From the NCBI GenBank assembly GCA_026874595.1, contig CM049309.1, positions 96,990,723 to 97,054,722 on the forward strand: a stretch of DNA of 64,000 nucleotides, in the 5' to 3' direction. How positions within the stretch are numbered: position 1 is the first letter of the stretch; every line of letters begins with the position of its first letter. Made by a program: the position numbers and the translations under genes. This DNA is from Sipunculus nudus (Eukaryota > Annelida > Sipuncula > Golfingiida > Sipunculidae). The notes beneath the pieces are model-generated. The model did not search any database. It was not told the origin of the DNA and saw only the letters and a list, made by a program, of their open reading frames with translations. Positions 12,296-64,000 of this stretch are shown one piece after another.

Positions 12296-12299
12296 CATC

Positions 12300-22727: not shown

Positions 22728-22735
22728 CCTGCTAT
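22728..22735. repeat. 8-bp target site duplication CCTGCTAT (left copy)
   Basis: CCTGCTAT directly precedes CAGACATGGGG and recurs exactly at 24878-24885 directly after CCCCATGTCTG. On the transposase strand this is ATAGCAGG, within the codons for the IAG that follows YDGAGN. Confidence 0.95.
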
Positions 22736-24448: not shown

Positions 24449-24517
<69 letters not shown>

Positions 24518-24877: not shown

Positions 24878-24885
24878 CCTGCTAT
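24878..24885. repeat. 8-bp target site duplication CCTGCTAT (right copy)
   Basis: Exact match to 22728-22735, directly outside the right terminal repeat. Confidence 0.95.
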
Positions 24886-36900: not shown

Positions 36901-38096
36901 ATCCAGTCATTTTACCGAAGCGGAATCACGTTGTGAATTTGATCATTCGAGATTGTCATGAGAAAATCGCACATCAGGGAAGAGGCTTTACGGTCAATGA
37001 GATACGATCCAGAGGATACTGGATACTCAGTTGCTGCAAGGCTGTATCCTCTGCAATTCATCAGTGTGTGACTTGCCGCAAGTTAAGAGGTAAAGCTGGA
37101 GGCCAAAGAATGGCCGAATTACCTAGTGACAGAACGGAGCCTTCTCCCCCTTTCTCTTATTGTGGAATGGACTGTTTTGGCCCTTTCGTGGTGAAAGAGG
37201 GCCGTCGTCAGATTAAGAGATACGGACTGATTGTGACATGTATGGCTTCTCGCGCTGTGCACATTGAATGTCTTGACGACATGTCAACTGACTGTCTCAT
37301 TAACACTCTCCGTTGCCTGATAGCTATTCGAGGACCAGTAGTTCAGATGAGATGCGACAACGGAACAAACTTTATCGGAGCCAAGCGTACTATAGATGAA
37401 GCTTTCACCGAGATAGACAGTGAACGAGTAAGACGTTTCCTTCGTTCACACCAGTGCCACTTTCTTATGAATAGTCCCTACTCCAGCCACATGGGAGGTT
37501 CGTGGGAACGCCATATTAGAACCATCAGAAGTATTTTGTCAGCACTACTTGGACAGCATAACGCTAGACTCGATACATCATCGCTACGCACTTTGTTTTA
37601 CGAGGTGATGGCTATCATCAATTGCCGTCCACTTACTGCTCAAAACTTGACTGACCCCATGGGTCCGGAACCTCTCACTCCAAATCACTTGATAACCATG
37701 AAATCGAACGTGATAACGCCTCTACCTGGTAGATTTGTTCGAGAAGATCTCTACGCTCGTAAAAGGTGGCGTCAAGTGCAGTATATGGCACAAGAATTTT
37801 GGAAGAGATGGAGGAAAGAGTATTTGTTGATACTCCAAAGCCGTCAAAAGTGGAGCGAGTCTCAGAGAAATGTTAGTGTCGGTGATATTGTGCTCTTGAA
37901 GGATGAAGATTTATGCAGAGTTGATTGGAAACTTGCAAGAATCTTAGATACTGTTGCTTCAGACGACGGGCTTGTGCGTAAAGTTAGACTACTTGTTGGT
38001 GATCCATGCCTATCGACAGAAGGAAAGCGCATACGTAAAGCATTCGTACTGGAAAGACCTGTTCATAAACTAGTTATGATCCTGCAGAACTGTTAA
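33948..38096 (+). CDS. pol: BEL/Pao pol polyprotein: protease, reverse transcriptase, RNase H, integrase (1382 aa)
   Basis: This intact polyprotein would be cut to the enzymes that copy element RNA into DNA and integrate it. Residues 16-25 (HPTCLHGDYE) are the usual end of the BEL gag zinc-knuckle region. The aspartic protease motif is DTQSD at 80-84. Reverse transcriptase covers about 367-560 with Asp442 (AGDIEKMF) and YVDD at 520-523. RNase H begins near FSDAS (Asp699). The integrase zinc finger uses His1004, His1009, Cys1040 and Cys1043, and the catalytic triad is Asp1075 (GMDCFGP), Asp1137 (RCDNGTNF) and Glu1187 (GGSWERH). A DUF5641 C-terminal domain ends the protein (SVGDIVLLKDED). No stop or frameshift interrupts 1382 codons. 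The ATG at 33948 lies inside the LTR-like insert, so the natural start is unclear; pol is normally fused to gag. Confidence 0.95.
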   Translation: MDNNQGFKSLNYFNRHPTCLHGDYEALNPTLTEPTQREPAVVRSASRLDKGLGCCSMTVPVYVTTKDNPDTEVMAYALLDTQSDTTFISDEIISKLNPKATLTKLKISTMTSSETVNCSKLCDLQVRGVNSKVKVSLPATHTTDCVPIKHSHIPTPDVARKWAHLQELSDHLVPLQDTHIGVLIGYNCPQALAPINVKHGTDNEPYGIETNLGWSIVGFVTSTDENEDDHTISHRVMSRSIPELLQVDERQRVSFVFRTSVKESPNFVDPSQIIRVLESDFQDKDKEKTMSQEDIRFLDILNDGIHQNEDGFYQMPLPFIGRKPDLPDNSSLAKRRLSQLRQKLESDHSFADEYRQFMTHMIHDGYAELVLNEEIDSSGTWTIPHHGVRHKKKGKLRVVFDCAVRYGGACLNDHLLQGPDLMNSLLGCLCRFREGQVAIAGDIEKMFYRFKVIPEHRDYLRFLWWDNNIDEEPKIYRMTVHIFGAVSSPGCANFALKQLASDHGHDFNQDVCQFLQQNFYVDDGLFSCDSSDQAINIIRGAIKLCERANIRLQKFVSNSREVMDAIPATERLCDTDSLNLTSDVERVLGVQWNVQSDNLQFSLTLDSKPMTRRGILSTIASIYDPLGCLAPFILIGKQVLQEMCRLEYDWDDHLSQELGPKWERWIAELLKITKVKIPRCYVPKDFGDVVHYEIHHFSDASSTGYGQCSYLRVVNQLGQVSCTLLIGKSRVAPLKLTTIPRLELTAAVVSVRIAEILQDELTYNFSKEVFWTDSRITLGYINNEERKFHIFVANRVRRIKQSSNQEQWQYVTSKDNPADHASRGMYPDELNKSYWFRGPEFLWRSNLPDEGNQEFPLSLNDPELKKVTVNATVADADGVRTVYSVTQRLQKFSKWSSVVTAIAVILRALKGRSKPLTPLDQSNAEITILKPIQAETFAEELQLLQNKNVPKGNRLHKLDPFLDENGLMRVGGRLKKSSLSYYVRHPVILPKRNHVVNLIIRDCHEKIAHQGRGFTVNEIRSRGYWILSCCKAVSSAIHQCVTCRKLRGKAGGQRMAELPSDRTEPSPPFSYCGMDCFGPFVVKEGRRQIKRYGLIVTCMASRAVHIECLDDMSTDCLINTLRCLIAIRGPVVQMRCDNGTNFIGAKRTIDEAFTEIDSERVRRFLRSHQCHFLMNSPYSSHMGGSWERHIRTIRSILSALLGQHNARLDTSSLRTLFYEVMAIINCRPLTAQNLTDPMGPEPLTPNHLITMKSNVITPLPGRFVREDLYARKRWRQVQYMAQEFWKRWRKEYLLILQSRQKWSESQRNVSVGDIVLLKDEDLCRVDWKLARILDTVASDDGLVRKVRLLVGDPCLSTEGKRIRKAFVLERPVHKLVMILQNC

Positions 38097-42295: not shown

Positions 42296-43474
42296 AGCTC
42301 AGCTGACTGAAAGTCAACTGAGGTACAGGTATAGCGCTTTGTCCATCATCCATCTGGGTGTCCGTCCGTCTGTTAGCACAAATCATAACCGCTGACCATA
42401 GATGCTTCTAGGTTTTATCCTTAGAGGTCAATGAAAAATCTCCTTGAAAACATGAAATTAGGTCACTGCAAGCCATATTGTCCAAGCTATGGGGCTCGAA
42501 AGTAACCCCCCACCCCCAGAATAATTAAAAATTTGATACAAAACCTCCAGTATCTTTATAATGATTGCATGGATTGCCATAAATCTTGCCGATTACGTGT
42601 CAGTTGGAAGGGCACCAGTTGGACGGGTCCCATTTAGACGGTCCCAGTCAGACGGGTCCCAGTTAGACGGGTCCTAGTTGGACGGGTCCCATTTAGACAC
42701 TATGTTATATTTATGTGACTTAATTACATACGTAAGTAGCCAGGGATTGAAGCTTTATGGGAAAGCCTAACTAAAATAATAAAAGTTTATTTATGTTGAT
42801 CAAACATGGTATAGCTATGACATTTTATGCAAGCCCTTATACCTGTGTACATGAATTATTGTTCAAAGAGCTATAGATTTTAACAGTTATATTGTTTTCT
42901 TCCCTGATGTTGCTAATTTTTTCTGTTTTGTCAGAGTTACAATAATGAATCAACATGCAATCAAATGTCAAATAAATTAGTGATATATATACTATAATAA
43001 CTGACATGCGGTCGAAATGTTCCGCCAATTTATGTAAATAAGCAAAATATATAAGCTAGGTTTTCGGCAAAATCTCATATTTTATTCCGATATATCACAT
43101 AATCCATGTGCTGCCATATTGTTAGTCCAACATTATGCATATTTCCAAGAAACAAGAGTGGAAACGCTTTACCGCATCAGGGATATATGACGGAGAAACC
43201 TGCACCTCTGACATGGTCACCACACTCCAAAGGGAAGCGAGGTCACTTTATAATTAACTTATTGTTTGAATAACGAGACTAATAAGTTGCGTTTCACAAT
43301 GAATATTATGGTACGGCATTTTATAAGTTCAGTAAAAACAGCCGATTACCCTTTGATAGGTGTTTTATTAATCAATAAGACACAACCCCACAAACAAGGT
43401 AAACAGAACAACAGTTATCTCTCGTGGTCCCTTCTATTATTTATCAAAATGAGCAGAGGGAAGGCTTTGTGCAA

Positions 43475-45223
43475 CTAGAATATGGGTAGTCGACAAGCGA
43501 CTACGTGTATCCGCCTAAATCAGAGTGGAACGGGTGAAGTGAGGCATGGATTAAGTGGCAAGGGGAAATAGAGTGAAGTGTTGCATATTAGCATGGATGT
43601 CTGCAGCCAAATTGTGTATGAAGGTTGCCCCCCCCCCCCCCCCACCACAAAATCCAGAAAGCCGTCCCAATTGTATACATATGCAAAATTTAAGGCAGAT
43701 AAGTCAAACCACTACATGTATACGAGTGATTTTAGCCCGTGGCAGACAATCAGATGGACGCTGAGCAAAAATGGTTGCAGGTGACGGCACCGATGCGTAT
43801 GATAAAGACCTATGTGAGAACTATACACATGCAAAACTTTGGCCCAATTGGTCAAACGGTTCCCAAGATATGAGCTTGGAAGTCTGCTGCATAAACTAGA
43901 ATGCAGGTGGCTCCACCTGTCATAAAATCAAGAGAGCTGTCGGGGATGTATAAACCTGCAAAATTTTAGCCAGATATGTCAAACCACTGCGGAGATATGA
44001 GTGATTTTATCCCATGGCAGACAAACAGACAGGAGCTGTGCAAAAATGGCTGCAGGTGGCGCCACCAGTTTTGCGTATGTTATAAAGCTCTCCAAGGGCT
44101 ACATTTGTGCAAAAAAATTTTCCTGATCGGTCAAACGGTTCCTGAGATATGAGCTTGGATGTCTGCAGCGTAAACGTGAATGTAGGTGGCACCACCTGTC
44201 ACAAAATCAGAAAAGCTATTCAGGATGTATAAGCATGCCAAATTTCAGGTGAATTAGTCAAGTCACTGTAGAGATATGAGTGATTTTAACCCAAGGCAGA
44301 CGAACAGATGGACACTGTGCAAACATGGTTGCAGGTGGCGCCACCATTTTTTGTGTATTTTATAAAGCTCTCCAAGGGCTACATTTGTGCAAAAAAATTT
44401 TCCTGATCGGTCAAACGGTTCCTGAGATATGAGCTTGGATGTCTGCAGCGTAAACGTGAGTGTAGGTGGCGCCACCTGTCACAAAATCAGAAAAGCCATC
44501 CAGGATGTATATGCATGCCAAATTTCAGGTGAATTAGTCAAGTCACTGTAGAGATATGAGTGATTTTAACCCAAGGCAGACAAACAGATGGACACTGTGC
44601 AAACATGGTTGCAGGTGGCGCCACCATTTTTTGTGTATGTTATAAAGCTCTCCAAGGGCTACATTTGTGCATAAAAATTTTCCTGATCAGTCAAACGGTT
44701 CCCGAGATATGAGCTTGGATGTCCGCAGGGTAAACGTGTATGTAGGTGGCGCCACCTGTCACAAAATCAGAAAAGCCATCCAGGATGTATATGCATGCCA
44801 AATTTCAGGTGAATTAGTCAAGTCACTGTAGAGATATGAGTGATTTTAACCCAAGGCAGACGAACAGATGGACACTGTGCAAACATGGTTGCAGGTGGCA
44901 CCACCATTTTTTGTGTATGTTATAAAGCTCTCCAAGGGCTACATTTGTGCAAAAAAATTTTCCTGAACCGTCAAACGGTTCCTGAGATATGTGGGTTTAT
45001 GTGTGGAAACAGACGCACAAACGGACGCAGAGCGCAGAGAAAAGGTCAGAGGTCAAAACAAAATCGGGGCGCAGCAGTTCACATGTGACCCGAACATAAT
45101 CCCGGGTTTCGTAAAATTCCGCCCAGCGGTTACGGAGGAGTTCTCCGGAAACCTACGCGGCGGCAGCGGCGGCGGCGTGCAGCTGAAAACATAGTATCCG
45201 CAAAACTCTGTTTTGGCGGATAC
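43475..45223 (-). mobile_element. Family F element, complete, with 280-bp tandem core
   Basis: Read on the minus strand: head hairpin GTATCCGCCAAAAC/GTTTTGCGGATAC (45194-45223) preceded by TT; a GC-rich leader with TGACCTCTGACCT; a core of 280-bp units (44052, 44331, 44611 and 44891 mark the same GCAGGTGGCGCCACC site); older diverged units; then GGCGGATAC (the head arm inverted, 43507-43515), a perfect 7-bp hairpin (43486-43504), and CTAG at 43475-43478 followed by TT. Total 1749 bp. The 60-80-codon ORFs are shadows of the repeat: the 280-bp unit is not a multiple of three. Confidence 0.85.
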
Positions 45224-45343
45224 AATTAAATATACACATTTATGTTTGTCTGTGTTGTCGTATGTATTTTGGATGAAGTTTATATTCACTTATTGCTATC
45301 CGCTAAATACACTGGTAATATACGTACTTGGTAAATACATGAA

Positions 45344-45365
45344 CAGAGAGAGAGAGAGAGAGAGA
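45344..45365. repeat. AG microsatellite
   Basis: About 22 bp of (AG)n. Confidence 0.95.
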
Positions 45366-45585
45366 TAATGCCTCAGAGAGATATGATAGAAAGAAAGGAG
45401 AAAGATGTTATTTTCATAAAAAATGAATGGTTTGAAAAATGAAATTATTACCATATAATACAAATTTGTTTTATTTCACAGGGGACTTTAATGTTTGGTG
45501 GTTGATGTTAATCAACAGAATATTTATCAAAGATCACCGTGCTGTTATTATAACAGTTACAACATGGCTTAGACAACCTGTAGCA

Positions 45586-46047
45586 ATTATAACCTGGTCC
45601 AGAATGAATTGGTGACAAACTTACAAGTCTCTGAGTTGATGTAAAAGATTCTTTATTTTAACTATACAGGAGAGGGTATGCCAAACCCCTCTTCAGGGCT
45701 TGGCCCCCAGTTTGTTACTGACTCTACCCCCACGACATATCTTCAATCAAGATTCATAAAACCATTTGTAAACCAATCAGAGATTTCCCTGACGTGTCAC
45801 AACAGATGCAATTAAAGAAAGGTGTGCACAGGAGCTGAATGAAAGTGCAATTAGACTGAATAGAGTTGCCATGTAATCAAGGCTAAGCAATTACAGTCAT
45901 TATGTAAATACTTGGCAACTCAGCTCTGACATTTGAATACACAAAGTCCCAATTAACTTAAACACCTGCAACTTACATAATATATAATCATGATGAAATA
46001 CTGTGAGTGAGAATTGTAGTAATAGACTGTCCCTTAGTACATTACAA
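45586..46047 (-). repeat. Dispersed LTR-like repeat, copy 1
   Basis: On the minus strand it reads TTGTAATGTACTAAGGG... to ...AAAATAAAGAATC...GTTTGTCACCA then TGGACCAGGTTATAAT. TG start, a polyadenylation-like AATAAA near the end and a CA end followed by a TGG-starting stretch would suit an LTR plus primer site. It matches 54404-54853 throughout with modest divergence. No internal retroelement coding lies beside either copy, so both could be solo LTRs. Confidence 0.6.
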
Positions 46048-46224
46048 ACTGGTGCGGAACGAAACCTAATCACAGTAACTGGTTAATTAACAAGAAGATG
46101 CACTTATGTGGTTTCCCTTTGAAACGTGGTAATATGGGATGTACAGTTTCTCCTTCCTGGTAAGGTCTTTGAAGAAAGTGATTTATACATAAATTTATTT
46201 AAGGAGTTAATAAATATATGTGAA

Positions 46225-46284
46225 ATCTATCTATCTATCTGTCTGTCTATCTATCTATTTATCTATCGCTCTATCTATCTATCA
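46225..46284. repeat. CTAT tetranucleotide microsatellite
   Basis: (CTAT)n with a few interruptions. Confidence 0.95.
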
Positions 46285-46679
46285 ACTAAAATGAAAGGCA
46301 TTGTATGATACAAGTCCGTAAAGAATCACTGAACTTAATACTTAAATAATAGGCAGTGTAGGATAACCTACACCTGTGAGTAAAAAACGCATTGAATTTG
46401 ATAACCAAAGGCTGTTTATGAAAGAAAAATATGTAACATATGAAATGAATAACTCATATTTTATTGATTGACCATGTAACTCGGCTTTCAAATAAGGACT
46501 ATTCTGATTTTATTGATGTCACAAGCAAGCAATAATTATTTAAGCTCTGTACATATTCAAAAAAAAAAAATAATGAACGGCATTTCTTTTAAGATAACAT
46601 CTCATTAATTATCGTTCCTATAAATAAATTCAATATAGACTTCAACGATGCCAAATATATGACATTTTAATGATTGCAT

Positions 46680-46776
46680 TTTATGTCGCCAGGTAGCCGT
46701 GTGTTCTATGTAAATAGGCGGTTAATTTTTCATTGCGTTGCAAATTGTTCAATACTATCATATACAATTAAAATGC

Positions 46777-46824
<48 letters not shown>

Positions 46825-47235
46825 ACAAAAATACAGCAAAATATCCTTGATATTACAAGGTAAGTGATAATAAAACGAGACATAATGCTTGCACATGATG
46901 TCGGCGTCGCCAGTCAGCCGGGTGGTCTATGTATATAGGCCGTTCATCCTTCATGGCGTTGCAAATGGTTCAATATTTTCATATATACAATTAAAATGCT
47001 ATATATCTATATATTTATATATCGATGTATATGTATATATATAATAAGACAACAAGACAGCAAAATACCCTAGATATTGCAAGGTAAGTGATAATAAAAT
47101 GAGACAAAGTAACACATCGCCAAATAGCCGGGTGGTCTATATGGGAATGAGCCGTTCATCCTTCAGGACGTTTCAAACTGCTTGATATTTTCATATATTC
47201 ATTCATATTACTATATATAATATAAAAATGCACAT
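46680..47235. repeat. Tandem array, about 210-bp unit, 2.5 to 3 copies
   Basis: Segments like GTCGCCAG...AGCCGGGTGGTCTATGT, then GGCGTTGCAAAT and ATACAATTAAAATGCTA, recur at about 46685, 46905 and 47122. A TA microsatellite lies within the first unit (46780-46820). Confidence 0.85.
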
Positions 47236-48406
47236 ATTTTAGCCTTCGTGTATTATACCCATACGTTATTGATAGAGTGTCTGACTGGGACCCGTCCAAC
47301 TGGGACCCGTCCAGATGGGATTGAAAAAATTTGACCCGTCTATCTGAAACCCGTCCATATGGGATGACACCATCTTGCCATGAATATTGACTATAACTAG
47401 TTTTGTCAGTTCATTAAAACTGGTGGAGCCACCTGTATAATTTCTAATTTTTTACAATTTTTTTTCTTTTTTTTTTTAGACCATGAAATGACAGCAGTTA
47501 TGTCAGTTTCTCAGCTTTTGTTTCATCCAGTGTCCCAAAACCCAGTGTGCTACTGATAATGATTGATTTCTTCAGTTTTTGAAGACTGGTGGTGCCACCC
47601 TTTATTTTTTCTATTTTTGATGCATGTTTTCCTTTATTGTGAGACTGCCAAATTATATTGATTCTATCAGATTATGAACTGTGGCTTTGTCTGTGTCCTG
47701 AAACCTTGTATGTTTATTAGGGCCCCTCTCAAATAAGCGTTGGTCTATATTTATTACCCTGTCTGTCGGTGTTCATCTTTCTGTATGTCCGTCAAATTTG
47801 TTTCCTGATGATAACTCAAGTTTGGATTGACATGGATTTCAAACTTGAATTGTATATGGCCCATCTCTAACACAGGAACTCTGTTGATTTGGGGGTTATG
47901 AGGTCAAAGGTCAAGGTCACAGGACCCACTATTTTGAAAGATTGTGCATGCATTTTAAGCCAAGGTTTTCATTCCAAACCTTCCATCTAGCACATATTTT
48001 AGCTGACTTGCCACCAGACGAAGAACCTGATTAATTTTTGGTTCACAAGGTTTAAGGTCAAGGTCACAGGGGCCATCTGTGCACATGTGTTTCTTGATGA
48101 TAACTCCAGTTTGAATTGACATATTGGTTTCAATCTTGACTTATATATGACCCTGAAATAATGTAAGAACCCTTTTGATTTTTGGGTCATGAGGTCAAAG
48201 GTCAAGGTCGCAGAACCCACTTTGTTAAAAAGATTGTGGATTCCTGTTTGGGTAGATGTGTTGCCCTTAAACTGATCACAGGACCCATATTTTGAAAAGG
48301 TCCATCAATATATCCTGTAGAGAAATTCAGCTGAACATCAAAACCCATGGGTCCCTAGTTTGTTTATGAAATGTATCCTTTAATATATCACTTAGGTCCT
48401 TTTCTT

Positions 48407-50049
48407 AGCTCAGATGACTAAGTCATCTGAGCTATAGAGATCACTCTTTGTCCGTTGTCCGTCTGTCCGTTAACCTGGCACAAATGGTAACCGCTGGACC
48501 TAGAATCTTGTAACTTGATATTCTGAGAGGTCCCTGTAAAATCTCCTTGGAAACCAGAAATCAGGTCTCTGTTACCCATATCCTTTGAGCTATGGGGCCC
48601 CAAAGTACCCCCCAGAATAGTAAAAAATTTCATACAAAAACTTCAATATCTCATTAACTACATCACTGATGGTCATAATTTTTGGCATACATATTGATCA
48701 TGAGATGTTTCATCAGTTTCTGCAGACTGGTGGCGCCACCTGTATTTTTTTATTCTTTACAAATTGTTTTCTCTATTTTTGAGACCTTTAAAAATGTGAA
48801 CATCTGTTAACCTGGCACAAATCGTAACCGCTAGACCTAGAATCTTTTTTACTTGACATTCTGAGAGGTCCATAAAAAATCTCCTTGGAAACCAGAAATC
48901 AGGTCTCTGTTACTCATATCTTTTGAGCTATGGGGCCCCAAAGTACCCCCCAGAACAGTCAAAAATTTCATACAAAAACTTCAATATCTCATTAACTACA
49001 TCACTGATGGTCATAATTATTGGCATACAAATTGATCATGAGATGTTCCATCAGTTCCCGCAGAGTGGTTGTGCCACCTTTATTTTTCGATTTTTTACGA
49101 ATTATTTTCTCTATTTTAGAGACCTTTAAAGATATGAACATCTGTTAACAGGGCACAAATCATAACAACTGGACCTAGAATCTTCATTCTTGACACACTG
49201 GGAGACCCATGAAAAGTCTCCATGGAAACCTGAAATTAGGTCTCGGTTACCCATATCCTTCGAGCTATAGGGCCCCAAAATACCCCCCAGAATAGTCAAA
49301 AATTTCATACAAAGAGATCATGAGATGTTTCATTAGTTTCTGCAGACTAGTGGCTCCCTGGAAACCTGGAATTAGGTCTCTGTTACCTATATTCTTCATG
49401 CTATGGGGCTTGTTTCAAATTTTTAAGAATTTTTTTCTCTATTTTTGAGACCTTTAAAGATGTGGTTATCTGTCCACAGGGTACAAATCGTATCAACTGG
49501 ACCCAGAATCTTCATTCTTGTCATGCAAGGATGCCCATGAAAAGTGTCTGTAGAAACCTGAAATTAGTTCTCTGTTTCCCATATCCTTCAAGCTATAGGA
49601 CTCCGATGTATCCCTCAGAATAATGGACAATTTGATACAAAAGCTGAAGTATCTGAACACCTTATGCAGAGGTCACCATGATTCTTTGCATGGATATTGA
49701 TTATGGAGTGTTTCATCAGTTTCTTCAGACTGGTGGTGCCACCTATATTTTATTAAATTTTTTGAATTTTTTTCTCTATTTTTGAGACCTTTAAGGATGC
49801 TGTCATCTGTTAACGTGGCACAAATTGTAACAACTGGACCTAGAATCTTCATTCTTGTCATGCAAGGAGGCCCATGAGAGTGTCTGTGGAAACCTGAAAT
49901 TAGGTCTCTGTTACCCATATCCTTCACGCTATAGGACTTCGAAGTATCCCTCAGAATAATGGAAAATTTGATACAAAAGCTGAAGTATCTGAACAATTAA
50001 TGCAGAAATCACCATGATTCTTTGCATGGATATTGACCATTGTGTTTTT
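48407..50049 (+). mobile_element. Family A element, head and core, cut by family C
   Basis: The head is a perfect 12-bp hairpin: AGCTCAGATGAC (48407-48418) and GTCATCTGAGCT (48422-48433). A CCGTC leader and about five core units follow (CATCTGTTAAC at 48798 and 49136 gives 338 bp). The core stops in GTGTTTTT at 50049, where a family C head begins. No tail is seen. It starts 49 bp after the tail of the preceding family A element. Confidence 0.85.
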
Positions 50050-51914
50050 AGCGAACCTGTGAGCTTATGCGATGGTGTGGCGTCGTCCGGCGTCCGGCGT
50101 CTGTCGTCTGTAAGTTAACCTATACTATCTTAAAAACGGCAAGAGTTAACATCACGAAATTTCATGCAAATAATTAGTCATCTAAAAAACTCTATCAGAT
50201 TTTGCTTATTTTTATGCTGACTGCATTTTCTTAGATTTCATAGGGAAAAAGCTTTAAAAATCTTCTTCTCTGAAACTGTTCAGCCAAATTGTCCAATATT
50301 TCACAGAAATGATCCCTGGAACAATCTCTCTCAAGTTTGTTCGAATGGTTCCAGTTTGGAGATTTTTTGCTGAGTTACAGGAGCTTGAACTTTGTCATCA
50401 GTCCAAAAAAGCATATTTAAATTTAAATCTCAGAAACGGCTGGAGCTATCATCACCAAATTTTATGCCAATGTTGGTCACATAGGTCATATCTGAAATTG
50501 AGGTATTGGTGGCGCCACCTACATTGGCTTTATTTGTGCGGGGTCAATAGTGCCTGTATCACACTGAGGGCTACAAAAAACTTCTTCTGTGAAACCATAT
50601 GGCCAAGATGTTTAATATCACACAGAAATGATCCTAGGGTAGTGCTTTCTGAAGTTTGCTCAAATGGTCTCTGTTCAGTGACTTTTGGCTAAGTTATGGG
50701 AAGCTGAATTAAGTCATATGCCATAACAGCCCATTTTAGTTCAGTGGCTACAAAGATCTTCTTCTCAATAACCACTGGGCCAATTTCTTAAATCTCACAC
50801 ATTAATTATCCTCAGATGTTGATAATTCAAGTTTGTTCAAGTGGTTTTGGTTAAGTGCTTTTTGGCTGAGTTACAGGAAGCTGAACCTATAGCCAGTTTG
50901 CTGTATCTTCCTATATGAGTTATAAACCTGCGAAACGTTTTTCGACTGTTGCCACTGAAGCCAGTTTGTTAAATATTTTACAAGAATAATCCCTACAATA
51001 ATTTTTATAATAATTGTCATTAATGGTTCCACATGAATGATTTTTGGCTGAATTATGGAGATTGAATTAAGTCATTTTACCATATATGTTAGCTGTGTAA
51101 TGCTGTTACATCTAGCCTGGCACCAGTTTATCAGCATCTATTACATCATGCCACTAGACATTTAGATTTAAGGTTATCTTTGGTTAATATTGGCAAGAAA
51201 GTTTTTTTAAAAGCTTTTAAAAAAAATTGGATTTATGATTTAAGTTATTCATCACACCAGGCAACGGGATATTCATGGATATTCAGCTCTCTGTGGCTAT
51301 ATAAATAAAACTGGATTATGGATTATAAATTATTGGTATCCCTACTTAACTTAATTCAAGAATTTGCCATCAATAAGATATATTTGTATTTTAATTTTGC
51401 ATTCAGTATGCATCTGTAATAATTTTACATGTATTCCTGATTTCTTTTTTTTATAAAAAGTCAGCTGTAAAGCATTTTGTATTGGGAAATATAATTTCAA
51501 AGTTATTTCAAGTAGGGACCACTTTTGTGTACAGATGGCAGCACTTGGTTTACCATTGGCAGATTGCCAGTGCCTTGATGTTGGCCATTAGCCAAGATGA
51601 TGTCAGCTCTATAAATAGTTTTGGCACAGTGCCTGGATCGGAAAAGGTGCAGCCAGGTATAGGTCAAGAGTTCACTCAGTGCAGTAGCTGCATTCTATTT
51701 ATAGCTTTGGCAGACTGCTCACTGCATCAGATTTGGCACCAAAGTTTAGCGTGGATCTATTTATAGCTTTGGCAGACTGCCAACTGTGTCAGATTATGCA
51801 ACAGGTCAAGAGTTTTCTCAGTGCAGCCAGGGGTTTGAAATATCAGTCAGACATTTGGCATATGTATATATCTCTTCGTTGTATACAAGACTGGTGGTGC
51901 CAGCTACAATCATT
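50050..51914 (+). mobile_element. Family C element, inverted relative to 9.7-11.2 kb
   Basis: The head AGCGAACCTGTGAGCTTATG begins in a T-run of a family A unit. The body has 177-bp-type units and the CAAAGCTATAAATAG segment of the left-hand copies. A plus-strand ORF at 50309-50692 is repeat-derived. The end is not resolved; family F sequence begins at 51915. Confidence 0.75.
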
Positions 51915-52028
51915 GTATCCGCCAAAACAGAGTTTTGTGGATACTATGTTTCAGTCGCTGCCACTGCGACCTCCACTGCTGCATTTTTTCCCGAGAACTC
52001 CTCCGTAACCACTGGGCAGAATTTTTTT
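51915..52028 (+). mobile_element. Family F head fragment
   Basis: GTATCCGCCAAAACAGAG with its inverted arm, then a leader matching that of the complete F elements (GAGAACTCCTCCGTAACC), cut at GGGCAGAATTTTTTT by insertion of a family A element. Confidence 0.85.
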
Positions 52029-53851
52029 AGCTCAGCTGACTATAAGTCATCTGAGCTATAGTCGTGGTCCATTGTCCGTCGTCCGTCCGTCTGTCCGTCC
52101 GTCCATCCGTCCGTCCGTAGATGTGGCACGTTTTGAAACCGTAAGACCTAGGAATCCAAAATTCAGCATAATGTTAGATGTCCCCAAGATCTCCTACCAG
52201 GCCGAAAACTGGGTCTTTGCGACTTCGTTCCTTTGAGAAATTAAGGAAAAACCTCAATTTTTTATTAAAATCCTATTTTCACACTTCAGGACTGCCTTAT
52301 ATCAAAACCACTCATCTGTTTTTCCTCATATTTACTATAAATATTCTTCTATATAGTTCCTATGTACATGCCAGAAATTAAGTCTGTTAAGTATAAATTC
52401 TTTAAGTTATGGGCCCAAACATAATGGACTTTGTAAAAAATCAGGAAAAATATTTACTCACTAAACATGAAAAATTTTGAAACTAGAGTCTATTTTCCCA
52501 AGTATATAACTATGTTTAATTAAGATTCAATTGTTTACCCAAAATAAGATCTGAATTTTGTAAATTTTTTAAGTAATTAGCATAAAAATAAAATCAGTAC
52601 CTTAAATTTTGCCCAACTTTGACCATGGCACGTTTTTTTTCTGTAAGTACCATTGATTTAATTTTCACAGCATGTAAACATAAATATTTAATTTGTTTAA
52701 ATCTGAAATTTGGAAGTAAAAGCTAAAACATTACAATAGAATATTTCTACATCCACCTTTGTGCTGCCCTCACTTTTCCCTTCTCCGAAACCCATCCCAA
52801 AGTCAGCCTCAGTAAGCAAGAACAAGATGAATCAGATATATTTATACTTTAATATTTTGTTTAACTATTCGTCCATAGGTACCTATGTACATGCCAGAAA
52901 TTATGTCAATATTGTGTAATATGTAGACATAGTGGGCATCACAATAATGTACCTTGTCAAGACTAAAGAGATATTGTGTCATACAGTCACAAATTCATAA
53001 ATCACTTCATCAGCATAGTTAATCATAACATCATATCTGTCAAATTGAAAGCTTGCATTTACTGTTTTTTACTTCATGACAGTCTTGTCAGAGTATTAGT
53101 TTGCAATCATATATTTAGAACTTTACTATAACCAAGTAGGAGGGCCCCTTTCCTCTTAGCTTTTCATATTCTTATATAAATGAAAAACATTACAATAGAA
53201 TATTTCTACATCCACCTTCGTGCTGCCCTCACTTTTCCCTTCTCTGAACCCCATCCCAAAGTCAGCCTCAGTAAGCAAGAACAAGATGAAACAGATATAT
53301 TTATACTTTAATATTTTGTATAACTATTCGTCCATAGGTACCTATGTACATGCCAGAAATTATGTCAATATTGTGTAATATGTAGACATAGTGGGCATCA
53401 CAATAATGTACCTTGTCAAGACTAAAGAGATATTGTGTCATACAGTCACAAATTCATAAATCACTTCATCAGCATAGTTAATCATAACATCATATCTGTC
53501 AAATTGAAAGCTTGCAGACTACCATACACTTTAGATCCTTCAACAAATAGCCTTATCATCATTCTACTACTGCTTATTACTGCTGTCATTGCATTCATAT
53601 TTGCTCAAATATATCACAATTTTCAACCCCTCCTAAATAAACAAAAAATAAACCACTATATTTGACTCTATTAATCCATCAGTCAGGTTATTTCATTTAT
53701 CATTTACTCCCATATTACATTACATTCCTTTATAATAGCCCAACATGTCCATGATATTCATAAGCTTTATCGTCTCGATATAGTATCACAGTGGAGAAAC
53801 ATTTATAGTCCAGTCACGATCAGCTGAGCGCCGTGACCCATGGGTCCCTTG
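52029..53851 (+). mobile_element. Family A non-autonomous element (1.8 kb)
   Basis: The head hairpin AGCTCAGCTGAC/GTCATCTGAGCT at 52029-52055 lies directly after seven T. A long CCGTCCGTC leader follows. The interior has a 477-bp tandem duplication (the CATTACAATAGAATATTTCT segment at 52730 and 53207). The tail GATCAGCTGAGCG, palindrome GACCCATGGGTC and final CTTG ends at 53851, followed by TTT. It is related to the inverted copy at 13319-16484. Confidence 0.85.
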
Positions 53852-54403
53852 TTTAACAACAATTAACTGCTATATTATTTTAAAATTGTTTAGTATTCCT
53901 ATCAGAAGAATATATAAAATGCATATACAGTCTATTGATACCATAGTTATTCTGTGCTGCTGCATGGCTTGGAATGGCTCCCTTGCTCCTGATAACTGTC
54001 GACGCGTCCTGGGGTTTGTTTCCTCTGACCTGTGTTCCATGAGGCATATGAGCGGTGGCATCACAAGCATCAAGCTCTTCTCTTGTAAATTGGCATCAGC
54101 GACATCACTAAATGCTTCTTTCCCAAGTGACTTTTTCTCAGTGCTCTTGATATTTAGTTGAAAACTATAGCCAGTGATCAGATCTATGTTACTGTTTGGT
54201 TATATTCTTAAGGGTACATCAGCAGGTTAGCTTCTTCTTGCCATGATGGATCACAACAGGCTTTCACTGGAGCAGCTTAGGTACTGTTGCACGAACATTC
54301 TACATGAATTTTACTGTATTATTGCAGGTATGCTTGTAAGGTATATTTTGACTTACTGCATTTGATTCCAGGTACAATAAGAGGCATCCTCGCCAGTGTA
54401 GAG
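53852..54403. other. Unassigned sequence, possible coding remnant on the minus strand
   Basis: A minus-strand reading at about 53930-54155 (KSLGKEAFSDVADANLQEKS, then EETNPRTRRQLSGAREP) has protein-like composition but no motif I recognise. It could be a diverged transposon gene or an exon. Confidence 0.25.
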
Positions 54404-54853
54404 ATTATAACCTGGTCCATGATGCTTTGGTGACAAACTTACAAGTCTCTGAGTTGATGTAAAATATTCTTTATTTTAACTAGACAGGAGAGGGTATGCC
54501 AGGCCCCTGTTCAGGGCTTGGCCCCCAGTTTGTAACTGCCTCTGAACACCTCGCCTCTCTGCCAGCATGATTCACACACTATTAGTAAACCAATCAGAGA
54601 TTTCCCTGACGTGTCACCACAGATGCAATAAAAGAAAGGTGTGCAATGAAAGTGCAATTAGACTGAATAGAGTTGTCATGTAATAAAGGCTAAGCAATTA
54701 GTCATTATGTAAATACCTGGCAGCTCAGCTCTGACATTTGAATACACAAAGTCCCAATTAACTTAAACACCTGAAACTTATATAATATATGAATAATGAT
54801 GAAATACAGAGAGTGAGAATTGTAGTAATGGACTAGCCCTTAGTACATTACAA
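54404..54853 (-). repeat. Dispersed LTR-like repeat, copy 2
   Basis: Matches 45586-46047 from ATTATAACCTGGTCCA through GCTTGGCCCCCAGTTTGT to CCCTTAGTACATTACAA. Same orientation as copy 1. Confidence 0.6.
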
Positions 54854-54868
54854 CTGGACCCACTTTTT

Positions 54869-57092
54869 GTATGCCCCCGCCACAAAGTGGCTGGGGCATA
54901 TAGTTTTACCCATGTCCGTCCTTCCGTCATTCCGAAATCAAACAGTTGTACGGACTTTTTTTCGCAATGCCTGCAGATATTGGCCTGATTTTTGGTGTGT
55001 GGGCAGATAATGACCAGTTACAGATCAAGTTCGCGTTTCGTCCCGGTTGACCTATTTTGACCGTTTTACAGCTCCTAAACTTAGAAAATTTCATGAAAAA
55101 TAGAAATTTTCATGACAAATACACATGTACGGACTTTTTTTCGCAATGCCTGCAGATATTGGCCTGAATTTTGGTGTGTGAGCAGATAATGACCAGTTAC
55201 AGATGGAGTTCATGTTTTGTCCTGGTTGACCTACTTTTGACCGTTTTACAGCTCCTTAACTTAGAAAATTTCATGAAAAATATAAATTTTCATGACAAAT
55301 ACACATGTACAGACTTTTTTTCGCAATGCCTGCAGATATTGGCCTGATTTTTTGAGTGTATGCAGATATTGACCTGTTACAGATCGAGTTCGCGTTTTAT
55401 CCCAGTTTACCCACTATTGACCGTTTTACGGCTCCTAAACATAGAAAATTTCATGAAAAATATAAATTTTCATGACAAATACACATGTACGGACTTTTTT
55501 TCACAATGCCTGCAGATATTGGCCTGATTTTTGGTTTGTGGGCAGATATTGACCAGTTACAGATCGAGTTTACATTTTGTCCCAGTTGACCTACTTTTGA
55601 CTGTTTGACAGTGCCCTAACATAGAAAATTACATAAAAAATATAAATTTTCATGACAAGTGCACATGTACAGACATTTTTTTTGCAATGCCTGCAGATAC
55701 GGACCTGATTTTTGGTGTGTTGGCAGATAATGACCAGTTACAGATTGAGTTCTTGTTTTGTCCCAGTTGACCTACTTTTGACCATTTGACTGCTCCTGAA
55801 TATAGAAAGTTTCATGAAAAATAGAAATTTTCATAACAAATGCAAATGTACAGACTTTTTTTCCGCAATGCCTGCAGATACCGTCCTGATTTTTTATGTG
55901 TGGGCAGATAATGACCAGTTACAGATCGAGTTCGCGTTTCGTCCCGGTTGACCTACTTTTGATTGTTTAATGGCTCCTAAACATAGAAAATTTCATGAAA
56001 AATATAAATTTTCATGACAATTGTATATGTACAGCTGTTTTTAGCCCTCAGCTCATAGGCTGATGGGCTATTGTCGTCACCCAAGCCATCCGTCTTTCCG
56101 TCCGTCCATGTGTCTGTCCGTTGTCCGTCCGTCTGTTAACTTTTACCTTGTGAGCGGGATATCTCTAAAAGGATTCACCGTTGGAATTTTATTTCATCAG
56201 TGAATGTTGTATATCAATAAAATCTCGGTCAAGTTCGTAGATGGGTGACCTTGACCCATTTTTCTACATTTTAGAGCTGATTATAGAAAAACACTCAGAA
56301 GCTTATATCTCAGGAACCATTGTGTGGATTTTCACAAAACTTAGTATGATCATTGGGACTGATGGTCTGTACGTGCTGCATAATTTTGGTTGCGCCCACT
56401 GCAATTTCTGATTTTTTAATGAAATTTTATCTGATTTTTCAATTTTGGCATTTTGTGCAGGATATCTCCAAAGGTATTCAACACAGAAACTTCATTACTT
56501 CAGTGCTTTTGCATCATATTTACAAAATCTTGGTCAAGTTCAAAGATGGGTGGTCTTGACCTACTTTTCAAGGTCACAGAGCTTAGTATAGAAAAAAACT
56601 TAGGAGCTTATTTCTCAGGAAGCATTTGGTGGATTGTTATGAAACATGGTACATACCTCTCCAATTTAAATTTATAACTGATTATCAGCTTTTGCTAATA
56701 TTCTAGTTTCGCGATGCAATGCTTACAGATACTGGCCTAATGTTTGGTCTATGGGCGCATAATGACCACTTACAGATCGAGTTCGCGTTTCATCCCAGTT
56801 AACCCATTTTTGACCATATGACAGATCCTGAACATAGAAAATTTCATGAAAGACAGAAATTTTTATGAAAAATGCACATGTATGGACTTTTTTTCACAAT
56901 GCCTGCAAATACTGGCCTGATTTTTGGTGTGTTGCTTGATAATGACCCGTTACAGATCGAGTTTGCATTTTGCCCTTGTTGACCTACTTTTGACCATACA
57001 ACCCCTCCTGAATTTAAAAAATTTTACAAAATTTAACAAATGTTTCTGAATTGCTCCAGGCGGGGGCATTCGTGTCATTCCAACACATCTAG
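54869..57092 (+). mobile_element. Family D element with 180-bp tandem core, split by family E
   Basis: The head hairpin TATGCCCCCGCCAC (54870-54883) pairs with GTGGCTGGGGCATA (54887-54900) with one mismatch. Six or more core units follow at a 179-182-bp period (CGCAATGCCTGCAGATA at 54963, 55141, 55321 and onward). The head arm recurs inverted as GGCGGGGGCAT (57059-57069), then GTGT...ACAC and CTAG at 57089-57092, followed by TTTT. Its flanks identify it as an insertion into a T-run of a family A tail. A family E element interrupts it at 56043-56706. Confidence 0.88.
56043..56706 (+). mobile_element. Family E element, copy 1, nested in family D
   Basis: The head AGCCCTCAGC/GCTGATGGGCT (56043-56069) begins in a T-run of a D unit, followed by a CCGTCC leader and about two diverged core units. 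The tail ATCAGCTTTTGCTAAT ends with CTAG at 56703-56706, followed by TTTCGCGATGCAATGC, where the D unit resumes. Contains GGTGACCTTGACC. Confidence 0.88.
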
Positions 57093-57261
57093 TTTTAAAA
57101 GATTGTTACAATAACCTAAATGCTGTAAGTTCAAGGATAATAAGTTCTCAGATTTTTTGGTCACAAGGTCATTGGTTAAGGTCACAGGACTGTCATTCTG
57201 AAAATGTCTTAAAAAATATCCTTAAAAAAATTCAGCTGAGCTGAGACCCATGGGTCCCTAG

Positions 57262-58411
<1,150 letters not shown>

Positions 58412-58631
58412 TGCCCAATGTTGGACAAATTTTATTGTACATCAGAATTAATGTTGGACAAATTTTATTGTACATCAGAATTAATGTTGGACAAATTTTA
58501 TTGTACATCAGAATTAATGTTGGACAAATTTTATTGTACATCAGAATTAATGTTGGCAGATTTTATTGTACATCAGAATTAATGTTGGCAGATTTTATTG
58601 TACATCAGAATTAATGTTGGCAGATTTTATT
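58412..58631. repeat. 33-bp tandem array (left part)
   Basis: Seven copies of ATGTTGGACAAATTTTATTG plus TACATCAGAATTA. The first copies have GGACAAAT (33 bp), the last three GGCAGAT (32 bp). The array is cut at 58631 by a family A element and resumes at 61893. Confidence 0.95.
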
Positions 58632-59676
58632 AGCTCAGCTGACTGTAAGTCATCTGAGCTATAGGGATCACCTTTTGTCCGTCGTCCGTCCGGCCGTCCG
58701 GGCGTCTGTCCGTTAACAGGGCACAAATCGTAACCGCTAGAACTGGAATCTTCTTACTTGATATCCTGGGAGGTCTATGGAAATTCTCCTTGTAAACCTG
58801 AAATTAGGTCACTGTGACCTATATTCTTCGAGCTATGGGGTTCCGAAGTACCCCCCAGAATAATGGAAAATTTGATACAAAAGCTCAAGTATCTGAACAA
58901 CTAATGCATTTATCATCATGATTTTTTGCATGGATATTGATCATGGAGTGTTTCATCAGTTTCTGCAGACTGGTGGCGCCACCTGTATTTTTTTCGATTT
59001 TTACCAATATTTTTCTCTATTTTTGAGACCTCTTAAGATGCGGCCATCTGTTAACAGGGCACAAATCGTAACGACTACACCTAGAATCTTCTCTCTTGAC
59101 ATGCAGGGAGGCCCATAAAAAGTCTCTTTGGAAACCTGAAATTAGGTCTCTGTTTCCCATAACCTTTGAGCTATGGGGCTCCGAAGTACCCCCCAGAATA
59201 ATGGAAAATTTGATACAAAAGCTCAAGTATCTAAACAACTATTGCAGTGATCAACATGATTCTTTGCATGGATATTGATCATGGAATGTGTCATCAGTTT
59301 CTGCAGTATGGTGGCGCCACCTGTATTTTTTTTATTTTTACGAATTTTTTTCTCTATTTTTGAGACCTCATAAGATGCGGTCATCTGTTAACATGGCACA
59401 AATCGTAACAACTGGACCTAGAATCTTCTCTCTTGACATGCTGAGAGGCCCATGAAAAGTCTCCTTAAAAACTTGAAATTAGGTCTCTGTTACCCATAAC
59501 CTCTGAGCTATGGGGCTCCAAAGTACCCCCCAGAATAATGGAAAATTTGTTACAAAAGCTCAAGTATCTGAACAATAATTATATTGATCACCATGATTCT
59601 TTGCATGGATATTGATCATGAAATGTTTCATCAGTTTCTGCATTCTGGTGGCGCCACCTGTATTTTTTCAATTTTT

Positions 59677-59703
59677 AGCTCAGCTGACTGAAAGTCATCT
59701 GAG
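59677..59703 (+). repeat. Second family A head hairpin inside the element
   Basis: AGCTCAGCTGAC and GTCATCTGAGCT again follow TTTTT in a core unit, with a new CCGTCCGGCC leader behind. Only one tail is seen downstream. Confidence 0.9.
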
Positions 59704-60053
59704 CTATAGGGATCACCTTTTGTTCGTCCGTCCGGCCATCCAGGCGTCTGTCTGTTAACAGGGCACAAATCGTAACCGCTAGACCTGGAATCTTCTTACT
59801 TAACATCCTGGGAGGTCTATGGAAATTCTCCTTGTAAACCTGAAATTAGGTCACTGTGACCTATATTCTTCGAGCTATGAGGTTCTGAAGTACCCCCCAG
59901 AATATTGCAAAATTTAATACAAAAGATCAAGTATCTGAACAACTAATGCATTAATCACCATGATTCTTTGCATGGATATTGATCATGGAGTGTTTCATCA
60001 ATTTCTGGAGATTGGTGGCGCCAGCTATATTTTTTTTATTTTTTACGATTTTT

Positions 60054-61087
60054 AGCCCTCAGCCCTTAGGCTGATGGGCTATTGTCGTCACCCAAGCTGT
60101 CCGTCCGTCTGTCCGGCCGGCGTCCGTTAACTTTTACCTTGTTTGCGGGATATCTTGAAAAGGATTCACCGTCAGAATTTAATTTCCTCGGTAAAGTTGT
60201 ATATCGACAAAATCTCGGTCAAGTTGGAAGATGGGTGACCTTGACTTATTTTTCTACATTTTAGAGCTGATTATAGAAAAACACTTAGATGCCTATTACT
60301 CAGGAACCATTTGGTGGATTTTCACAAAACTTACTATGATTATTGAGACTGATAGTCTGTACGTGCTGTACAAGTTTGGTGGCGCCACCTACAATTTCTG
60401 ATTTTTAATTAATTTTTCTTGGATTTTTTAACTTTGGGCTTGTGAGCGGGATATCTCAAAAAGGATTCACCGTAAGAATTTTATTTTTTTGGTGAAGATG
60501 TATATTGACAAAATCTCAGTCAAGTTTGAAGATGGGTGACCTTGACCTATTTTCCTACGTTTTAGAGCTGATTATAGAAAAAACATTTAGAAGCTTATTT
60601 CTCAGGAACCATTGGATGGATTTTCACAATACTTACTATGATCATAGGGACTGATGGTCTGTAACTGCTGCACAAGTTTGGGGGCACCACCTGCAATTTC
60701 TGATTTTTTATTGAATTTTTCTTGGATTTTTCAACTTTGGCCTTGTGAGCGGGATATCTCTAAAAGGATTCACAATAGGAATTTTATTTCTTTGGTGAAG
60801 ATGTATATCGACAAAAATCTCGTTCATGTTCGAACAATGGTGACCTTGACCTACTTTTCAAGGTCACAGAGCTTATAATAGAATAAAACTTAGGAGCTTA
60901 TTTTTCAGGAAGCATTTGGTGGATTGTTATGAATCATGGTACATACCTCTTCATTTTAAATTTATAACTGAGACATGTACAGATATACATCCATGTGAGA
61001 ACAGATATTAAGTACTTGTTACTGTTACCACCTCTAAACACTGTTCTTTTGGCTGAGGGCTTTTGTCAGCTTTTGCTGATATTCTAG
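60054..61087 (+). mobile_element. Family E element, copy 2 (1034 bp), nested in family A
   Basis: The head AGCCCTCAGC/GCTGATGGGCT follows a TTT run in an A unit. A CCGTCCGTC leader and about three core units of 300 bp follow (GCGGGATATCT at about 60146, 60447 and 60749). The head arm recurs inverted as GGCTGAGGGCT (61051-61061), then the hairpin TCAGC-TTTT-GCTGA (61066-61079), TATT and CTAG at 61084-61087. The A unit resumes with TTTTTCTCTACTTTTG. Contains several GGTGACCTTGACC sites. Confidence 0.92.
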
Positions 61088-61892
61088 TTTTTCTCTACTT
61101 TTGTGATCTTTAAACATTTGGTCATCTGTAAACAGGGCACAAATCATAATGACTGGACCTAGAATCTTCTGTCCTCACCTCCAGGGAAGCCCATAAAAGG
61201 TCTACATGGAAACCCGAAATAAGGTCCCTGTTACCCATATTCTGTGAGCTATTGGGCTCTGAAGTACCCCCCAGAATAAAGATTTGGTCATATATTAACA
61301 GGGCACAAATCATAATGACTGGACCTAGAATCTTCTTTCTTGACATGCAGGGAGGCCTTTGGAAAGTCTCTTTGGAAATCTGAAAATAGGTCTCTGTTAC
61401 CCATATCCTTCATGCTATGGCTCCGAGAATAAAGATTTGGTCATCTGTTAACAGAGCACAAATTATAATGACTTGACCTAGAATCTCCTTTCTTGATATG
61501 CTGGGAGGCCCCTGAAAAGTCTCCTTGTGCACCTGAAATTACATCTCTGTTACCCATATCCTTCATCCTATGCGGCTTTGAAATACCCCGCAGAATAAAC
61601 ATTTGGTCATCTGTTAACAGGGCACAAATCATAATAACTGGACCTAGAATTTTATTTTTTGACATGCTGGGAGACCCCTGAAAAGTCATCTTGTAAACCT
61701 TGAAAATAGGTGTCTGTTACCCAAATCCTTCATGCTACAGAGCTCCATAGTACCCCAATGAATATTGGATGATTTTATACAAAAGGTCAAGTTTGGAAAA
61801 AGTATTTCATTCAAATTTGACATTCAGATGATAAAATTTTTTTTGTCAATGTCTTCCTGGTCAGCTGAGCGTCATGACCCCTGAGTCACTTG

Positions 61893-62125
61893 TTGTACAT
61901 CAGAATTAATGTTGGCAGATTTGATTGTACATCAGAATTAATGTTGGACAAATTTTATTGTACATCAGAATTAATGTTGGACAAATTTTATTGTACATCA
62001 GAATTAATGTTGGACAAATTTTATTGTACATCAGAATTAATGTTGGCAGATTTTATTGTACATCAGAATTAATGTTGGCAGATTTTATTGTACATCAGAA
62101 TTAATGTTGGCAGATTTTATCCTTA
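61893..62125. repeat. 33-bp tandem array (right part)
   Basis: About seven further copies, again GGACAAAT-type in the middle and GGCAGAT-type at the end. Confidence 0.95.
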
Positions 62126-62167
62126 GATGGGCAATGATAAATCTTTCTCTTGCACTTTGAAGTTTTC

Positions 62168-62405
62168 TGATGTTTACAGGTGCTACAGTCTTCCCTGTGA
62201 TTTGCACTGATGATGTTTACAGGTGCTACAGTCTTCCCTGTGATTTGCACTGATGATGTTTACAGGTGCTACAGTCTTCCCTGTGATTTGCACTGATGAT
62301 GTTTACAGGTGCTACAGTGTTCCCTGTGATTATAGTTATAGTATTGCAAAAGCATTTCTGATGTTTACAGGTGCTACAGTCTTCCCTGTGATTTGCACTG
62401 ATGAC
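62168..62405. repeat. 43-bp tandem array
   Basis: GATGTTTACAGGTGCTACAG then TCTTCCCTGTGATTTGCACT recurs at 62169, 62212, 62255 and 62298, with a fifth copy after a gap at about 62359. Confidence 0.95.
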
Positions 62406-62634
62406 AGGTGAAGCTTTGTGAAGACTACCGTATTTATTCCAATTTGGCGATCCCTCTTATTTCTCAACCCCAAAAAATATTTTTAAAGCATAATTTCTAA
62501 AATGACTCTAATTTCGCGACTGCCGACAATGTCTTCTGTCGAAGATGTTAAGGTGAAATGCCTCCGTCATTCACGGGCACCGCAGTTTGTATCAGGCTTC
62601 TGGTTTTTAAATCATAAATGACCCAATCTTTAAT
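62406..62634. other. Unassigned sequence
   Basis: No gene or repeat recognised. It ends in CAATCTTTAATT, just before a family F head. Confidence 0.4.
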
Positions 62635-62637
62635 TGT

Positions 62638-64000
62638 ATCCGCCAAAACAGAGTTTTGCGGATACTATATGTTTTCAGCTGGACGCTGCCGCCGGCGCGG
62701 CGTAGGTGTCTGGAGAACTCCTCCGTAACCGCTGGGCGGAATTTTCCGAAACCCGGGATTATGTTCGGGTCACATGTGAACTGCTGCGCCCCGATTTTGT
62801 TTTGACCTCTGACCTTTCCTTTGCGCTCTGCGTCCGTTTGTGCGTCTGTTTCCACACATAAACCCACATATCTCGGGAACCGTTTGACCAATCAGGAAAT
62901 TTTTTTTGCACAAATGTAGCCCTCGGAGAGCTTTATAACATACACCAAAAAAATGGTGGCGCCACCTGCAACCATGTTTGCACAGTGTCCATCTGTTCGT
63001 CTGCCTTGGGTTAAAATCACTCATATCTCTGCAGTGACTTGACTAATTCACCTGAAATTCGGCATGCGTAAACATCCTGGATAGCTTTTCTGATTTTATG
63101 ACAGATGGCGCCACCTACATTCACGTTTACGCTGCAGACATCCAAGCTCATATCTCGGGAACCGTTTGACCGATCAGGAAAATTCTTTTGCACAAATGTA
63201 GCCCTTGGAGAGCTTTATAACATACACCAAAAATGGTGGCGCCACCTGCAACCATGTTTGCACAGTGTCCATTTGTTCGTCTGCCTTGGGTTAAAATCAC
63301 TCATATCTCTGCAGTGACTTGACTAATTCACCTGAAATTTGGCATGCGTATACATCCTGGATAGCTTTTCTGATTTTGTGACAGGTGGCGCCACCTACAT
63401 TCACGTTTACGCTGCAGACATCCAAGCTCATTACTCGGGAACCGTTTGACGGATCAGGAAAATTCTTTTGCACAAATGTAGCCCTTGGAGAGCTTTATAA
63501 CATACACCAAAAATGGTGGCGCTACCTGCAACCATGTTTGCACAGTGTCCATCTGTTTGTCTGCCTTGGGTTAAAATCACTCATATCTCTGCAGTGACTT
63601 GACTAATTCACCTGAAATTTGGCATGCGTATACATCCTGGATAGCTTTTCTGATTTTATGACAGGTGGCGCCACCTACATTCACATTTACGCTGCAGACA
63701 TCCAAGCTCATATCTCAGGAACCGTTTGACCGATCAGGAAAATATTTTTGCACAAATGTAGCCCTTGGAGAGCTTTATAACATACACCGAAAATGGTGGC
63801 ACCACCTGCAACCATGTTTGCACAGTGTCCATCTGTTCGTCTGCCTTGGGTTAAAATCAATCATATCTCTGCAGTGGTTTGATTAATTCACCTGAAATTC
63901 GGCATGCTTATATTACATCCTGGATAGCTTTTCTGATTTTATGACAGGTGGCGCCACCTACAATCAAGTTTACGCTGCAGACATCCAAGCTCATTTCTAG
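62638..64000 (+). mobile_element. Family F element, head and core, running off the window
   Basis: The head hairpin GTATCCGCCAAAAC/GTTTTGCGGATAC begins at about 62638, followed by the GC-rich leader with TGACCTCTGACCT (62803-62815) and 280-bp core units (GGTGGCGCCACCTGCAACC at 62955, 63237 and 63517; GGTGGCACC at 63797). Inverted relative to the complete copy at 43475-45223. The tail is beyond the window. Confidence 0.9.

Follow-up and report, generated by a model that had tools for sequence, protein, structure and literature searches.

Repeat families with the plan of non-autonomous Helentrons, and their regional orientation, in the genome of Sipunculus nudus

Introduction

Several groups of mobile elements that lack their own enzyme combine characteristic ends with a tandem core. 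The Cg_HINE elements of the oyster Crassostrea gigas carry a subterminal inverted repeat (subTIR) and an inverted repeat in the head, a GTCC/GTCY microsatellite, a tandem core, and a 3′ subTIR with a palindrome, and they insert at TT targets without target duplication; in their group 2, different cores are joined to common ends (PMC7492417; this and the other papers cited here are represented by parts of their text). In mites, mosquito and Drosophila, HINE/DINE-1 elements and Helentrons likewise have palindromic subTIRs, near the 5′ end and again 38-60 bp from the 3′ end, a 3′ palindrome, and T-rich insertion sites with variable terminal Ts and an unchanged target (PMC4067079). The Pearl, DTC84 and MgE elements of bivalves are non-autonomous and contain short tandem arrays (PMC7492417, PMC5139131). 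Here we analyse a stretch of 64,000 nucleotides from the annelid Sipunculus nudus (hereafter the window; GenBank assembly GCA_026874595.1, contig CM049309.1, called C4, 96990723-97054722), in which repeat families A, D, E, F and V show the same plan and very probably represent non-autonomous Helentrons (HINEs).

This plan is already published for Cg_HINE and Pearl, and the window families extend a known type; in general appearance the repeats of this genome resemble molluscan ones. All the features listed above recur in the window, including different cores with common ends (A and V). The differences lie elsewhere. Repeat units measure 180-338 bp here and mostly 140-180 bp in Cg_HINE (PMC7492417); a palindromic motif crosses family borders here, while none was found for Cg_HINE in the consulted part of PMC7492417; and autonomous partners are known for the mite, mosquito and Drosophila Helentrons (PMC4067079), whereas the window families are known from non-autonomous copies. 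DTC84 also has a conserved palindrome near its repeat junction, the comparison being one of descriptions and not of sequences (PMC7492417, PMC5139131). A more distant parallel is IS200/IS605, which is bacterial and uses another enzyme. It inserts as a single strand, as the present elements probably do, and its orientation tracks replication direction in its hosts, a link that is hypothetical for the present elements (PMC5371812).

Results

A reading of the window made from its sequence alone had proposed that families A, D, E and F share a head hairpin, an inverted head arm near the tail, a tail hairpin and a CTAG end within T-runs. Copies were collected and their ends compared, as that sequence-only reading had suggested, across the window and a further 200 kb on contig C1 (20 stretches of 10 kb, L011-L030, 18 of them placed at listed sites of the motif described below and two in the gap between listed sites); some A and D head rows in this survey are the hairpin read in reverse. 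The comparison yielded fixed ends, T flanks and no target duplication. All four head hairpins were present and folded better than dinucleotide shuffles (z = -4.4 for A, -5.9 for D, -3.7 for E and -7.0 for F). The inverted head arm was located near the tail in A, D, F and the E2 copy, although not in E1, and palindromic subTIRs were present in A, D, E2, F and V and absent from the dispersed repeat G. The tail hairpin was upheld for E and F, which beat shuffles (3/200 and 11/200 as good), and not for A, where it had been called clear, nor for D. In some copies the A tail is a perfect sequence palindrome, GACCCATGGGTC. CTAG, or CTTG in some A copies, closed 53 of 59 tail rows as proposed, and TT followed the tail in 56 of 59. 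Upstream, TT preceded the head in 62 of 77 rows (background about 0.10 per position), and F heads had exactly two Ts in 16 of 18 cases. The predicted tandem-array cores were found in the elements flanked by T-runs, with a GTCC-type microsatellite after the head.

An untargeted scan of the window for a T-run, a head hairpin, an inverted arm and then CT[AT]G-TT returned 15 rows, equivalent to eight head-tail pairings (some heads or tails were used twice). Twenty shuffles gave 0-2 rows each (8 in total) and the reversed sequence three. The scan missed E because of an extra base in its hairpin. The 3′ end ATATTCTAG is common to E and F and the GTAT start to D and F; such similar ends are the one argument that the families may share a single replicase.

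Insertion sites were visible directly, as were the nesting of the elements, their ends and their T targets. A3 (58632-61892, +), with a second head at 59677, splits a 33-bp satellite (58417-58631 and 61893-62120), whose intact units provide the pre-insertion state; the joined flanks differ from it by two additional Ts only. E1 (56043-56706, +), lying within a D unit, and E2 (60054-61087, +), a complete element within an A unit, also had their empty sites in T-runs. For D1 the empty site was a weak match to an A-tail paralogue only, and no convincing empty site was found for V1, V2, F1 or A1. Target duplications and other end points were looked for and not seen; the empty sites show only extra T, which fits HINEs, in which a varying number of terminal Ts is part of the element (PMC4067079). 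D carrying E recurs in the window, L012, L018 and L025: four of the six E heads lie at one common position in D, and an identical loss of the arm is seen in four of the six E tails, so the composite seems to have been copied as a unit and E1 is not an independent record.

Taken against the features published for HINEs (PMC4067079, PMC7492417), the subTIRs, the 3′ palindrome (weak in D), the tandem core, the microsatellite, the TT target and the missing target duplication support the proposed identity. We put the probability that A, D, E, F and V are HINEs moved by a rolling-circle cycle at about 0.93. By analogy with the known family, a Rep/helicase encoded elsewhere would nick one strand at the element head, and this strand would be peeled off through rolling-circle copying. 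At the tail, the inverted head arm together with the 3′ palindrome would mark the CTAG/CTTG end, and copying would halt there. The single strand would then be joined into a T-run between two Ts, leaving the target unduplicated. The tandem cores would be passengers, multiplied in the same cycle.

Several observations weigh against this identification. Fewer than two Ts stood upstream in 15 of 77 head rows, the A1 head has no T directly upstream, and E1 has lost its inverted arm. The tail hairpins of A (112/200 and 63/200 shuffles as good for two A-type tails) and D (90/200) were no better than shuffles. G had no head hairpin (193/200 shuffles fold as well) and no inverted arm was found in it. 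Neither Rep nor helicase appeared in the seven of 14 long open reading frames of the window that were scanned against Pfam, the genome beyond these being unsearched. Apart from these points, searches returned no Rfam match for the window, no match to the A-head pattern in viral contigs and no match in prokaryote genome contigs.

Canonical Helitrons, with a 5′-TC start and an A|T target, would also account for a CTAG/CTRR-like 3′ end after a hairpin, and the A3 site, ATTTTA|TT, can also be read as A|T. This site alone is ambiguous: the heads begin with AGC or GTAT and not TC, subterminal inverted repeats are present and E1 and E2 lie within T-runs, which leaves this alternative very improbable. 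Terminal-inverted-repeat (MITE-type) elements moved by a DDE transposase, suggested by the inverted head-arm copies and by the original naming of Pearl elements as MITEs (PMC7492417), are already disfavoured and slightly less probable still, since the tail arm copy is subterminal, the CTAG/CTTG end lies beyond it and the empty sites show no target duplication.

The remaining elements of the window complete this picture. A1 (42296-48358, +) runs from an A head to a CTAG end. A foldback-like element (42591-47371), itself host to F1, interrupts A1; we infer the pairing of the A1 head and tail from the A core that flanks this interruption on either side. At its two ends the foldback-like element has 15-bp tandem repeats in inverted arrangement, and the 8-bp sequence ATCTTGCC flanks it as a direct repeat (42583-42590 and 47372-47379), all as read by eye. 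F1 (43475-45223, -) has the head GTATCCGCC, a tail hairpin, the E/F-type end and TT on both sides, and is the only complete F copy within 42296-64000. A2 (48407-50049, +), an A head with a 338-bp array, has its 3′ part cut by G (50050-51914, +), a repeat of uncertain HINE status that starts with AGCGAACC after a T-run and contains once the shared palindrome described below. An F head fragment (51915-52028, +) is followed by V2 (52029-53851, +), in which A-type ends (CTTG) enclose the different core V; A-type ends thus carry two distinct cores. D1 (54869-57092, +), made of 180-bp units and split by E1, has its start corrected to 54869 (GTATGCC). An isolated A-type tail with palindrome and CTAG lies at 57232-57261 (+), and an F-family HINE runs off the window (62636-64000, +). 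Further left, V1 (13319-16484, -) again joins A-type ends to the V core, and the additional A, G and F-related copies at 3510-12308 are all on the minus strand.

Other mobile sequences were also present. A Pao-type long terminal repeat (LTR) retrotransposon occupies 31936-38093 (Peptidase_A17, rve, DUF1759). Sequence resembling it lies near 28.9-30.0 and 38.2-39.2 kb; repeated 14-mers and the matching sequence point to end repeats. hAT-like transposase pieces (DUF4371, Dimer_Tnp_hAT) lie at 21467-26097 (-), and a reverse-transcriptase fragment (RVT_1), probably of non-LTR type, at 12245-12688 (-).

The families had also been described as unrelated in sequence. The common plan was borne out, but the cores are not wholly unrelated, since a 12-letter palindrome, appearing as the directional motif GGTGGCGCCACC-TRYA, is common to the otherwise dissimilar cores of A, E, F and G, repeats with different heads. 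There are 18 exact copies of GGTGGCGCCACC in the window against 0.0003 expected, one of them followed by TGTA (58972-58987, +). The 16-mer GGTGGCGCCACCTRCA has 62,948 exact copies (31,998 and 30,950 by strand) in the genome of 1,426,538,692 bases and 153 contigs; the reversed control has 0. TRYA lay downstream, in element sense, in 40 of 45 sites (54 rows minus nine judged outside elements) and upstream in 0 of 45. After masking of the motif, core consensuses aligned no better than shuffles except weakly in four pairs (E-F, E-D, A-D and A-F, with 4, 2, 8 and 18 of 200 shuffles as good). Among the 18 12-mers present in at least three of seven element groups, 12 belong to the motif and six to the GTCC microsatellite. 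A literature search did not find GGTGGCGCCACC described in the parts of papers that it covered, where the string itself occurs in a chitinase paper. The motif in two viral contigs was judged a chance occurrence (long open frames, no head sequences).

These sequence patterns make the palindrome a candidate site for a host protein, possibly CTCF-like, kept in unrelated cores: besides the exact copies, the one-sided TRYA and the share of common 12-mers, its reverse complement holds the YAGRKGGCRS part of the CTCF consensus CCASYAGRKGGCRS (PMC6746451), which matched 39 times where shuffles averaged 1.3. We consider this unlikely. The sites lack the CCAS half of the CTCF consensus (one full-type match), D and V are without the motif, and compared with the rest of the core it is less conserved in E, only mildly more in F and more in A (19/326 windows as good). 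Descent of a core segment accounts for the shared palindrome equally well.

At two places the elements are oriented by region. The window lies about 0.5 Mb short of the end of C4 (97,527,750 bases); its elements are on the minus strand at 3.5-16.5 kb and, except for F1, on the plus strand at 42.3-64 kb, with a 43-bp V match at 40449 on the minus strand. On C1, 95 minus motif sites and no plus site are among the matches listed between 140,931 and 1,076,610; the first plus site listed is at 1,102,798, and 62 plus sites are among the matches listed up to 2,963,405. A minus site at 1,142,289 is present in the DNA beyond the matches listed, but plus places were complete in the eight stretches compared (L021-L027, L030), which indicates that the strand pattern is not an artefact of which matches were listed. 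Matches of at least 120 bp, which are not independent, numbered (plus/minus) 0/180 in L011-L020 and 91/0 in L023-L030; on C4 they were 0/68 left of the flip and 70/7 to its right, the seven being F1. Outside the query copies, query identities ranged from 64 to 99%, so diverged and recent copies agree in strand. Two stretches left of the window (L036, L037), predicted beforehand to be minus, had minus copies only. Of five places chosen regardless of the motif (L031-L035, one beside the window), L034 and L035 were plus only, and none of these families was found in L031-L033 or in L038 (less 1,722 bases). L028 (C1:2100001-2110000) is nearly all tandem array, with shifted copies matching at about 92-95% and 49 poly-T runs on one strand against 0 on the other.

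An orientation-unselected sample was obtained with long exact patterns for V (484 copies, 252/232 by strand) and D (217, 108/109); the first 100 copies per family entered the comparison. Same-strand pairs made up 7/9 below 50 kb, 3/7 at 50-100 kb and 6/8 at 100-150 kb, then 8/21, 9/19, 22/43 and 85/176 at successively longer distances. Below 150 kb the total was 16/24 (V-V 9/11, V-D 7/10, D-D 0/3), which 391 of 5000 label shuffles reached and which therefore lends weak support only. On contig C2, a V and a D copy 2.3 kb apart lie on opposite strands. Coherence elsewhere thus extends over short or moderate distances, and the C1 domain of 0.94 Mb is exceptional. Non-element repeats were of no use as an orientation control; the leftovers behave like elements and probably include unmasked element parts.

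Discussion

The orientation pattern probably arose without a link to replication. Its sources would be nested insertion into the T-rich strands of other elements, duplication on a local or segmental scale, or an effect of long-gene transcription on selection or insertion; nesting, local duplication or long genes may account for the pattern in part or in full. At C1 0.2-0.83 Mb, 18 of 34 heads had element sequence upstream and were thus nested; some flanks recur, genome-wide coherence is weak, and the base skew of the remaining DNA is equal on both sides. On the other hand, the 16 heads with non-element flanks there were also 0 plus and 16 minus (in stretches picked at minus motif sites), the motif-less families D and V agree with the regional strand, and poly-T and poly-A targets were equal (198 and 191 in L011-L020).

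A doubtful but more far-reaching possibility is that Helentron-type elements insert into the single-stranded lagging-strand template, so that their orientation would be a fossil record of fork direction, with replication origins in the window and at C1 1.08-1.10 Mb. Insertion of this kind would account for the flips together with equal poly-T and poly-A targets. It would also suit, after the fact, the end regions of C1 and C4, where elements point outwards, as forks at chromosome ends must run in that direction. A link between orientation and replication is known for IS200/IS605 (PMC5371812). For Helitrons, a search of the literature with lagging strand, orientation bias or replication found no such link shown in the parts of papers that it covered, and the Helraiser paper offers lagging-strand dependence or supercoiling as possibilities only (PMC4778049). 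Several points weaken the evidence from orientation: the choice of L011-L027 and L030 followed motif sites whose strand was already known, which makes the motif-bearing families there a biased sample; the flip zone (L021-L022) is mixed, with 13 plus and 15 minus; minus sites recur on the plus side of C1 (1,142,289 and 1,491,754-1,492,326); and to these are added the opposed C2 copies and the even base skew.

Regional orientation and the shared motif are less ordinary than the element type itself and merit further study. The elements add to the published connection of Helentrons with satellite DNA, and the 62,948 exact motif copies raise the question of host-protein binding. A genome with thousands of oriented copies allows a direct test of how Helitron-type elements choose their targets; if the link to replication were true, a replication map would be readable from sequence.

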